Source: an uncultured Pelagibacteraceae bacterium (GTDB lineage Bacteria > Pseudomonadota > Alphaproteobacteria > Pelagibacterales > Pelagibacteraceae). From it: a stretch of DNA of 64,000 nt. Position numbers and translations under genes: made by a program. Shown here piece by piece: positions 39,018 through 42,006 of the stretch; position 1 is the first letter of the stretch; every line of letters begins with the position of its first letter. The notes beneath the pieces were generated by a model. That model searched no databases. It had not been told where the DNA came from and saw nothing but the letters and a program-made list of their open reading frames with translations. The stretch is taken from NCBI GenBank assembly GCA_902607625.1, contig CACLKR010000002.1, forward strand, positions 1 to 64,000, given 5' to 3'.

Positions 39018-40310
39018 TTACATTTTTTCTATTCTGATAAAAGTAGGTTTTTTCAGTACAAATTTATTTTTTGTTAAATTAAAAAGTAAATTATTATAAT
39101 TTTTTTCCGAATTTGTATGAGTTATTATTATTATAGAAGCTTTTTTATTTTTTTTATCAGGATTTTGTATTAAATTTTTAATTGAGATTTTATTCTTCGA
39201 AAAAATTTTTGTTATAGAAGACAAAACACCTGGTAGATCTTTTACTTCAATACGCAAATAGGAAGAGCAACTGTGATTTAATATATTAAATTTGGCAATT
39301 TTTTTTCTAAAAATTGACGATATGCCAAAAGGAAATTTAATATTTCCTCTCATCACTGAACATAAATCAGATATTAAAGCGGAAGATGTAGGTCCAGGTC
39401 CCGCTCCTTCACCCTGAAAAATGGATTTACCAATTGGTTTACCATCGATAACAATAGCATTTAATACTCCATCTATATTAGCTAAATACGAGTTATTCTG
39501 AATTAAACAAGGATGAACACGCTCAATTAATTTATTTTCCTTAATTTCTGAAATTGATAATAATTTTATTTTGAAACCCAATTTCTTGGCATGCAAAATA
39601 TCAGTTAAATTAATATTTTGAATACCTTCAATTAAAATTTTGTTTTTAGAAATAGTCTTATTAAAAGCTATTGAAGATAAAATTCTTAATTTAGAAGCAG
39701 AGTCATTTCCATCAAGATCAGAACTTGGGTTTGTTTCAGCAAAACCTAAATTTTTAGCTTCATTAAGAACATCTGAAAATTTTTTCTTACTACTTTCCAT
39801 AGAGGATAAAATAAAATTTGTTGTACCATTAAGAATTCCATAAATTTTATTAATTTTATTTGCTATCAAGTTTTCTTTTATTGATCTTATAATTGGTATT
39901 CCTCCTGCTACAGATGCTTCATATTCAAGATTTACTTCATTACTTTCTGCTAATTCGGCAAGTTGATCTCCGTATTTGGCCATTAAAGCTTTGTTTGCTG
40001 TTATCACATGTTTTTTATTTTTTAACGCTGAAAAAACTAATTTTTTTGCAACTCCTTCAGAACCTCCAATTAATTCAACTATAATGTCAAGATCATCTAT
40101 TAAAGGTAATTTTAAAGGATTTTTAAACCATTTTGATTTAGGAATTTTAATTGATCTCTTTTTATTAATATTTTTCGCACAAATATATTTTATGTTTGGA
40201 ATTTTCCCAGTTTTAACAGATATATTATTTTTATTTTTTTCCAAAGTTTTATAAAAATAACTACCAATATTTCCAAATCCAACAACTGCTATATTGATCA
40301 TTTCAGCCAT
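39018..40310 (-). CDS. hom: Homoserine dehydrogenase
   Basis: This enzyme reduces aspartate-semialdehyde to homoserine, leading to threonine and methionine. The NAD(P) loop VVGFGNIGSYFYK is at the N-terminus, YEASVAGGIPIIRSIKENL and GILNGTTNFILSSM in the core, and LGFAETNPSSDLDGNDSASKL carries the catalytic Asp/Lys region. A C-terminal ACT domain (YLRIEVKDLPGVLSSITKIF) suggests feedback control, usually by threonine. An ATG three codons in (40301) is an alternative start. Confidence 0.95.
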   Translation of the reverse strand: MAEMINIAVVGFGNIGSYFYKTLEKNKNNISVKTGKIPNIKYICAKNINKKRSIKIPKSKWFKNPLKLPLIDDLDIIVELIGGSEGVAKKLVFSALKNKKHVITANKALMAKYGDQLAELAESNEVNLEYEASVAGGIPIIRSIKENLIANKINKIYGILNGTTNFILSSMESSKKKFSDVLNEAKNLGFAETNPSSDLDGNDSASKLRILSSIAFNKTISKNKILIEGIQNINLTDILHAKKLGFKIKLLSISEIKENKLIERVHPCLIQNNSYLANIDGVLNAIVIDGKPIGKSIFQGEGAGPGPTSSALISDLCSVMRGNIKFPFGISSIFRKKIAKFNILNHSCSSYLRIEVKDLPGVLSSITKIFSKNKISIKNLIQNPDKKNKKASIIIITHTNSEKNYNNLLFNLTKNKFVLKKPTFIRIEKM

Positions 40311-40315
40311 AATAT

Positions 40316-40972
40316 TTAATCAGGGATGTTATTAATATCAGGATAATCTCTGTTAACATTTTTATTTGTAATTTTTTCTGCCAATATCAAAAATTTTGAT
40401 GATTTCATCTCTTCATATATAGCACTGTCATCAATATTAACGGTTTGTTTTGGTTTCTTATTTTTCTTTTTTACTGTTTTTTCTTTATCAAGATTGATTT
40501 GTTTAGCTAATTCTTTTTCCTCTTCAATTCTTCTTTTTTCATCAAGTTTTACTTGCTTAGCTAATTCTTTTTCCTCTTCAATTCTTCTTTTTTCATCAAG
40601 TTTTACTTGTTTAGCTAATTCTTTTTCCTCTTCGATTCTTCTTTTTTCATCAAGTTTTACTTGTTTAGCTAATTCTTTTTCCTCTTCGATTCTTCTTTTT
40701 TCATCAAGTTTTACTTGTTTAGCTAATTCTTTTTCTTCATTAATCATTTTTTTTTTATTAGTACGTGTTTGTAAAATAATTCTTTCTATATCTGAATTAT
40801 TAGTAAGCTTTTTTTTATTGATATTTTTTACTTCTACAATCATTGTTTTTTTAAAATATGCTTCTCTCTCTTTTTTATTTATACACGCATGATCGCCACA
40901 CCAATACACGACTTTATTATTAGCACAACTAAAAACAACAAAAAATATAATTATATAATAAAACTTTTTCAT
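40316..40972 (-). CDS. Lipoprotein with tandem 18-residue coiled-coil repeats
   Basis: A 218-aa protein of unknown function. The lipobox VFSC (Cys16) marks it as a lipoprotein. Next comes a short Cys-containing part, VVYWCGDHACINKKEREAYF, then four full copies plus a partial copy of an 18-residue unit (EEEKELAKQVKLDEKRRI), strongly charged and helical. A C-terminal Asp/Asn-rich region ends in DINNIPD. The repeat is nearly identical at DNA level, so copy number may vary between strains. It overlaps the start-side neighbour argC by 4 bp. Confidence 0.75.
   Translation of the reverse strand: MKKFYYIIIFFVVFSCANNKVVYWCGDHACINKKEREAYFKKTMIVEVKNINKKKLTNNSDIERIILQTRTNKKKMINEEKELAKQVKLDEKRRIEEEKELAKQVKLDEKRRIEEEKELAKQVKLDEKRRIEEEKELAKQVKLDEKRRIEEEKELAKQINLDKEKTVKKKNKKPKQTVNIDDSAIYEEMKSSKFLILAEKITNKNVNRDYPDINNIPD
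40501..40737. repeat. 54-bp tandem repeat inside the lipoprotein gene
   Basis: Four complete 54-bp units (starting at 40501, 40555, 40609 and 40663) and about 20 bp of a fifth follow one another. They differ at only a few positions (gcttag/gtttag at the unit start, caattc/cgattc inside). The period is a multiple of three, so the frame is kept whatever the copy number. Confidence 0.95.
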
Positions 40973-42006
40973 ATCAGGCCCATGGTTTCTTTTAATTTAA
41001 AAGCAACATTCATATTTTGAACAGCCTGACCAGATGCGCCCTTTATCAAATTGTCGATTGTTGAAATTATTATAACTTTATTTTTAATTCTACTTTTGCA
41101 TACAGAAATATTGCAATAATTTGTATTTATAACATCTCCAGTACCTATTGGAGTATTAAATTTAGCAATTTTTACAAAAAAATTTCTTTTATGATATTTT
41201 TTTAAATATTTATAAATTTTTAAAGCATTTATATTTCTGTGGGTATCCAAATATATAGTCGATAAAATACCTCTAAACATTGGTATAAGATGTGGTGTAA
41301 AAGACACATTAATTTTTTTATGGGAGATTTTAGATAATTCTTGATCTATTTCTGCCATATGTCTATGTGTACCTACTCCATAAGCTGACACAGAGTTAAA
41401 TAAATTTTTGAATTTAAACTTATTTTTTATTTTTTTTCCGGCACCAGAGTAACCCGACTTAGCGTCTATAGTAATATTATTTATATTAATTATTTTTTTT
41501 TTTATCAATGGTATCAATGGTATTTGTATAGATGTTGGGTAGCAACCAGGACATGAGATAATATTGTATTTATTTAAATATTCTCTTGAAAATTCTGTAA
41601 TTGCATATATAGATTTGTTTATTAAATTTTTACATTTATGATTAATTCCATACCATTTTTTATAAAGTTTAAAATCATTTAATCTAAAGTCAGCCGATAA
41701 ATCAATTAGTTTTACGTGATTTGGTATAACCTTTGCAATTTTTTGCGCTTCTCCATTCGGTAGAGCTGTAAAAATTATATCAATGTTGTTCCAATTAATA
41801 CTTGTGATTTTTGTAATCTTTGGAAGATTTTTTTTTATTATCTTTTTATCGTAATTATAAATTTTACCACCTGACGATTTTTTAGCACACAAATATAAAA
41901 TTTTTACTTTGGGGTGGTTTGATAAAATCTTAATTAATTCAAGCCCCACATAGCCAGTAGCTCCAGCTATAGCAATATTCAATGAATCTTTCATCTCGTT
42001 GATCAT
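40969..42006 (-). CDS. argC: N-acetyl-gamma-glutamyl-phosphate reductase
   Basis: Third step of arginine synthesis, reducing N-acetylglutamyl phosphate to the semialdehyde. AIAGATGYVGLELIKIL is the NADPH loop, SCPGCYPTSIQIPL holds the catalytic Cys, and YGVGTHRHMAEIDQEL the catalytic His. The length is 345 aa. An ATG four codons in (MKDSLNIAIAG) is an alternative start. It lies downstream of rpsI after 37 bp. Confidence 0.95.
   Translation of the reverse strand: MINEMKDSLNIAIAGATGYVGLELIKILSNHPKVKILYLCAKKSSGGKIYNYDKKIIKKNLPKITKITSINWNNIDIIFTALPNGEAQKIAKVIPNHVKLIDLSADFRLNDFKLYKKWYGINHKCKNLINKSIYAITEFSREYLNKYNIISCPGCYPTSIQIPLIPLIKKKIININNITIDAKSGYSGAGKKIKNKFKFKNLFNSVSAYGVGTHRHMAEIDQELSKISHKKINVSFTPHLIPMFRGILSTIYLDTHRNINALKIYKYLKKYHKRNFFVKIAKFNTPIGTGDVINTNYCNISVCKSRIKNKVIIISTIDNLIKGASGQAVQNMNVAFKLKETMGLI

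Follow-up and report, generated by a model that had tools for sequence, protein, structure and literature searches.

A Pelagibacteraceae lipoprotein with a conserved head and an in-frame 54 bp repeat array in a predicted helical stalk

Introduction

Lpp, the Braun lipoprotein of E. coli, is an N-terminally lipidated, helical and charged protein, the C-terminal Lys of which is linked to peptidoglycan. The effects of changing its length have been studied in E. coli (PMC5736177). Domain II of TolA is described as a long charged helical spacer of the periplasm (PMC10666116), and a further source places TolA in the inner membrane, with a globular C-terminal domain and a helical domain II that is mainly gamma-proteobacterial (PMC12204202). 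Single alpha-helix (SAH) domains are E/K/R-rich, form an uninterrupted helix and are used as spacers (PMC4183817). Furthermore, in-frame coding tandem repeats that differ in copy number occur in Legionella pneumophila and other bacteria (PMC2639597).

In this study, a lipoprotein gene was analyzed within a stretch of 64,000 nucleotides from an uncultured Pelagibacteraceae bacterium; this whole stretch is referred to as the window. The protein resembles Lpp in its N-terminal lipid (putative), its helical character and its charge; however, it is larger, with a two-Cys head and 18-residue repeats, and a C-terminal Lys is not conserved, the last residues of the orthologues varying (D, N, E, K, Q and others). 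No Lpp family appeared among the Pfam matches up to E = 1. As in TolA domain II, a long charged helix may act as a periplasmic spacer, whereas, unlike in TolA, there is a lipobox at residue 16, and what follows the helix is a stretch of low model confidence and then a tail of 28 residues; up to E = 1, neither Pfam nor NCBIfam gave a TolA family. The predicted continuous, E/K/R-rich helix (E 22%, K 24% and R 9% over residues 58–173) is like that of SAH domains. The repeats are in-frame, coding and of differing copy number, as in L. pneumophila, but the differences here are between species and the host is a free-living oligotroph, not a pathogen. By analogy, the lipoprotein may work like Lpp, TolA domain II or SAH domains, yet it lacks the features of Lpp and TolA that were tested.

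Materials and methods

The genus of the window genome is denoted g1, and one genome was used per species. The Pelagibacteraceae genomes (297) were searched with a head region of 79 residues at E ≤ 0.001; later counts refer to the 88 orthologues in which the CGDHxC motif is exact. The tail was scanned at E ≤ 0.05 in 118 genomes using a profile of g1, g10 and g6 tails. A FastTree tree of ArgC and Hom covered 36 loci, with no g2, and was midpoint-rooted; its rooting is uncertain. Repeat units for the comparison across species were chosen by score against the consensus, which gave 44 units from 13 of 14 species; L014 yielded none and L017 was excluded.

Results

The gene and its product

Judged from its sequence, the product of the gene (Table 1) is a lipoprotein of the SAR11 family Pelagibacteraceae, encoded in an argC-X-hom gene row in a genome of 927 kb (76.5% complete). 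Its start codon shares four bases (ATGA, read directly) with the argC stop. Directly upstream of the gene, without a change of strand, lies argC in all 88 orthologues; wherever the contig continues (83 orthologues) the next gene is hom, and the other five contigs end inside the gene (L007, L016, L017, L022 and L029). In G012 two contigs apparently share the gene, C21 ending in it (L017) and C37 (L181) carrying its tail and then hom.

The naming of the product as a lipoprotein in the earlier note was borne out: the signal peptide ends in the Cys of a lipobox, a feature of bacterial lipoproteins (MKKFYYIIIFFVVFSC, judged by eye and pattern), and 88/88 orthologues with the exact head motif have a Cys after the hydrophobic stretch and before the head (again by eye and pattern). 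Sorting to the outer membrane requires that Asp is absent at +2, a rule that comes from E. coli. At the position that follows the final Cys ahead of the head, 38 orthologues have S, 18 N, 14 T, 11 A, 4 G, 2 V and 1 E, with Asp in 0/88, although the E. coli sorting rule may not be that of SAR11. The further description as a 'surface' lipoprotein is unsupported, and the default placement would be an outer-membrane anchor facing the periplasm.

Searches of Pfam, NCBIfam and PDB sequences gave nothing above cut-off, also when the queries included long forms (one from g4, two from g2) and two short forms; the LpxD/LpxA and sigma-70 rows in the Pfam and NCBIfam searches lay far below the cut-offs and were set aside. 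A literature search, mostly outside subscription journals, gave no description of this lipoprotein among the matches listed. A promoter scan returned 32 sites, compared with 26.8 ± 4.9 in shuffles.

Table 1. Positions of the gene, its neighbours and the parts of its product in the window
Feature	Position	Strand	Remarks
Lipoprotein gene	40316..40972	(-)	218 aa plus stop; from ORF list
Signal peptide and lipobox, residues 1–16	40925..40972	(-)	..VVFSC; putative lipidated Cys16; Ala at +2; by sequence
Conserved head VYWCGDHACINKKEREAYFKKTMIVE, residues 22–47	40832..40909	(-)	both Cys and Gly in 96/96 orthologues; invariant in alignment A1
Degenerate unit SDIERIILQTRTNKKKMI, residues 60–77	40742..40795	(-)	array register; counterparts in other g1 species
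Five in-frame 54 bp (18 aa) units	40472..40741	(-)	four near-identical, fifth diverged
Predicted continuous helix, residues 61–172 (112 residues)	40457..40792	(-)	AlphaFold2
C-terminal tail SSKFLILAEKITNKNVNRDYPDINNIPD, residues 191–218	40319..40402	(-)	g1 and g6 short forms by profile; g2, g3 and g4 by position and [YF]P[DN]I-type motif, weak profile support
argC, upstream neighbour	40969..42006	(-)	
hom (homoserine dehydrogenase), downstream neighbour	39018..40310	(-)	

The repeat array in the window

Tandem Repeats Finder (TRF) reported period 54 at 40480..40735, with 4.7 copies, a 96% match and a score of 456. The next-best score in the 64 kb window outside the array was 61, and a period-18 row with a score of 70 falls on the array itself. 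SAR11 genomes are very compact; the earlier statement that repeats are rare in such genomes holds for the window, to which these scores apply.

Read in frame on the (-) strand, the 18-codon units lie at 40688–40741, 40634–40687, 40580–40633, 40526–40579 and 40472–40525. Units 2–4 all encode EEEKELAKQVKLDEKRRI and are 1–2 bases apart. Unit 1, in which N replaces E at the first residue, is 3–5 bases from them, three of its differences falling in the first two codons, so that units 1–4 show 1–5 pairwise differences per 54 bases. Unit 5 keeps its first nine residues and is diverged in the rest, at 9–10 bases from units 2–4 and 12 from unit 1. The previous count of four full copies and one partial copy is right if unit 5 is taken as the partial one, and the location given with it (40501..40737) stands, except that the array reaches slightly further at both ends (40472..40741). 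The two-unit peptide gave four matches in the window genome (76.5% complete), all of them inside the array. The array is real and not a chance pattern. A 132 aa open frame at 40494..40892 (+), antisense across the array, is probably a by-product of the in-frame repeat.

The array could have been created during sequencing or assembly, and 5/88 orthologue contigs do end inside the gene, as happens at repeats. However, the longest exact internal repeat is 101 bp (lag 54), which ordinary reads can cross, and in-frame arrays of period 54 are present in the assemblies of eight other species; an artefact is very improbable, while extra identical units could have been collapsed in the assembly.

The degenerate unit at residues 60–77 has counterparts, such as SEIEKIIQQATLDEKQRI and SEYEKLLKQAKIDEKTRI, in other g1 species, including species that have no array, and is a possible seed of the array.

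Repeats across species

TRF found period 54 in 9/15 g1 orthologues (2.0 to 5.6 copies, 64–96% match) and in 0/73 others; of the six g1 orthologues without it, L017 is cut before the linker. The number of repeats thus varies between species, in agreement with the proposal that the protein is length-variable. In L006 the copied block is double, at 108 bp (97%). The mean distance between units was 0.294 within species and 0.362 between species, and 0/2000 label shuffles were as low, yet the nearest neighbour belonged to the same species for only 21/42 units. All five units of the window were nearest to other window units; the nearest species compared with the window differs by 21% in argC DNA. 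The units of L007 and L010 correspond position by position, and their array is therefore old and stable.

The head domain

The head search matched 115 genomes. Three g3 matches (L105–L107) belong to a different lipoprotein, which leaves 112 true matches. The head residues were read in 96 of these 112, 30 from the search loci and 66 from 69 fetched regions (the other three being false matches). Both Cys and the Gly are present in 96/96, Asp in 94/96 and His in 90/96 (R in five and K in one); because the search itself favours the motif, these counts describe variation within the family rather than the frequency of the motif. The conserved head, which had been proposed as something to look for in other genomes, is thus kept across the family. 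At E ≤ 0.01 the head was matched in 16/23 genomes of g1, or 15 without the false match in G004. With the same cut-off, a head profile matched 28 of the 247 genomes of the order, of which two were weak and the rest fell in genera already known to hold the family. In the class as a whole (385 genomes) there were two matches with it, one from the window genome and one from G545, the latter being rejected as chance (18 residues in a 27 aa frame).

Several further matches were rejected. L105–L107 and L020 (G004) have an HG.H or HG.A head, an LG.PS motif and a different neighbourhood. A relation to a BamE-like lipoprotein through these weak matches in g3 and G004 was not found, given that they are another lipoprotein. 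A second weak match in G012 (L021) is out of frame and lies beside a sugar-nucleotide-type enzyme.

The head had been suggested to bind a metal or to form a disulfide. A DsbB-family gene is present in the window genome and in 16 of 21 genomes searched; a disulfide is possible in the head because the window genome has this gene, and the conserved Cys pair favours a disulfide over a His-bound metal. Metal binding through the His is weakened, since this residue is R or K in 6/96.

Helix, linker and selection

The AlphaFold2 prediction, based on nine sequences, gives one helix over the residues listed in Table 1, an uncertain head and a short tail helix, with a pTM of 0.31; block mean pLDDT values are 86–96 over residues 61–160, 71 over residues 161–170 and 47–69 in the head. 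This agrees with the helical part of the earlier proposal of a periplasmic rod. An alpha-helix rises by 1.5 Å per residue. The 18-residue unit is charge-neutral and corresponds to exactly five helical turns. The excess of ion pairs at salt-bridge spacing in the array is modest, 93/2000 shuffles being as high.

Such a helix might also associate with itself as a coiled coil, in which case the lipoprotein would be an oligomeric stalk. Long charged helices can form coiled coils, and L6, V10, A7 and I18 of each unit fall within ∼120° on a helical wheel, but heptads assigned by eye have hydrophobic residues at about two in five core positions, and the AlphaFold2 prediction is of a monomer and says nothing on oligomers. 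We consider this oligomeric form rather doubtful.

The linker is 76–139 aa long (median 103; 81 orthologues) and net-positive in 80/81. Eight close pairs of orthologues, with at most two copies in any array, gave whole-gene dN/dS values of 0.05–0.50, a sign of purifying selection; for the linker, dN/dS was below 0.5 in seven of the eight and 1.13, from few changes, in the eighth. The linker as a whole is therefore not free. These data bear on the idea that the array is a neutral product of slippage and that the head and tail alone matter. The unit is in-frame and charge-neutral, the units are near-identical at the DNA level and 6/15 g1 species have no period-54 array (one being cut before the linker), all of which speak for neutrality; the charge and dN/dS of the linker oppose it, in pairs of which none has a long array. 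Neutral slippage keeps a substantial minority of the probability, above that of any other alternative discussed here, and the repeat itself may be free of constraint, as the pairs measured carry no long array.

The C-terminal tail

A [FY]P-type motif near the C-terminus was found in 82 of 89 long forms (the 88 orthologues plus L028), and the seven long forms without it comprise five contig ends and two broken frames. The latter reading frames stop early, in the linker in L047 and just before the tail motif in L026, through either decay or sequencing error. A CxxxxxC pair occurs in g2 and g4 tails (67/81; for example L036 and L093) and is absent from the 12 g1 tails and from g10 and g11, and so the head and tail Cys pairs are inherited separately.

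With the g1 tail profile, none of 4000 shuffled controls reached the score of either g6 short form (E 0.00017 and 0.0019). With a profile of all tails, the same was true of one g3 short form, L142 (E 0.0071); the other five g3 short forms (of eight short forms) did not exceed the controls with either profile. The tail scan matched 31/118 genomes. Thirteen of these matches are long forms of g1, g10 and g11; the g6 short form was matched in four genomes (E 3e-13 to 9e-12), two of which had supplied rows of the profile, and the slot protein was matched in a further pair of g3 genomes (E 1.2e-4 and 0.0036), where it lies between argC and hom. In the remaining twelve genomes the matches were all weak (E 0.002–0.05), and the four loci that were checked have neither argC nor hom. 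No g2 or g4 slot tail was matched in the scan, the six matches in g2 and g4 genomes lying off the slot, and the window genome gave one match. From these profiles the tail is taken as shared by g1 and g6; its sharing with g2, g3 and g4 is suggested by slot, position and motif, with weak profile support.

The gene slot and short forms

Eight g1 genomes have no true head match; seven have no true argC in the assembly and the contig of G018 ends in argC, and absence of the gene from them is therefore not established. Fifteen true argC loci were read in genomes that lack the head. Eight of them hold a small lipoprotein of 53–76 aa (six in g3 and two in g6) without head or rod, in which a helix-like stretch is followed by a [YF]P[DN]I tail. 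At five loci from four genera (two in g5 and one each in g7, g9 and g12) argC and hom are adjacent, and the remaining loci are those of g13, where another gene follows, and one cut g1 locus. In the ArgC and Hom tree, g10 (long form) groups with g3 (short form) with a support of 0.996, and g6 (short form) lies elsewhere, beside g13; the short form has therefore probably arisen at least twice. Genus g1 is not a single clade in this tree. L018 (g1) and L024 (g11) are 97% identical in the DNA of the argC region despite their different genus labels.

The rod could be a periplasmic ruler or span, as are the helical region of TolA and the coiled coil of Lpp, its length being selected to bridge the outer membrane to peptidoglycan or the inner membrane. 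The predicted helix of 112 residues (∼17 nm) and the equal linker length of 139 in L005 (window) and L006, the arrays of which differ, are consistent with a ruler; in addition, lengthening of Lpp in E. coli widens the distance between the inner and outer membranes (PMC5736177). Against it, linker length varies from 76 to 139 aa (81 orthologues), and in g3 and g6 the lipoprotein of the slot lacks the rod but has a similar tail. Because of these forms, and of the adjacency of argC and hom in four genera, the rod seems to be dispensable, which counts against a fixed ruler; the 'spacer' of the earlier note, if taken as one of needed length, is likewise opposed by the slot lipoproteins that have the tail alone. 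The short forms may act differently, but they make a role in measuring length less likely, and we regard a ruler as unlikely.

Discussion

The reading that we prefer, at a probability of roughly 0.6, is that of a SAR11 lipoprotein with fixed ends and an evolvable middle, in which a lipid-anchored helical stalk presents a docking tail. The N-terminal lipid would be inserted in the inner leaflet of the outer membrane, with the head forming a small disulfide loop beside it; the 18-residue charge-neutral units would build a single alpha-helix, a stalk of ∼17 nm from which the tail would project into the periplasm and may dock there on a partner in the periplasm or the peptidoglycan. The weakest link of this explanation is the tail, the profile support of which is uneven. 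The array may have arisen by tandem duplication of an in-frame 54 bp unit, perhaps from the neighbouring degenerate unit, and slippage or unequal recombination could have amplified it again in several species. Its growth would be tolerated because any whole number of units keeps the frame and the helix and because the length of the rod is not critical. The repeat thus looks like a tolerated, evolvable spacer rather than a fixed ruler.

A broader version would have an outer-membrane lipoprotein confined to the SAR11 lineage, its conserved tail docking on a periplasmic partner and its stalk evolving fast, being repeatedly remade by 54 bp amplification in one genus, while at least two other lineages lost both the stalk and the disulfide head. 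All of these parts together are improbable, and we offer this version as a speculation. If it were true, copy number within populations would tune the reach of the envelope in the most streamlined free-living bacteria.

The protein thus represents a lineage-specific family of lipoproteins, so far without a name, in which the stalk can carry repeats. Conserved envelope proteins that belong to no named family, such as this lipoprotein, are hard to study. The family is now defined by its slot, head and tail and is linked to short forms that the head search had missed, and the natural length series of no rod, linkers of 76–139 aa and repeat arrays allows the question of stalk length to be asked. 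If copy number also varies within populations, an oligotroph of the ocean would have in this gene something like a contingency locus.
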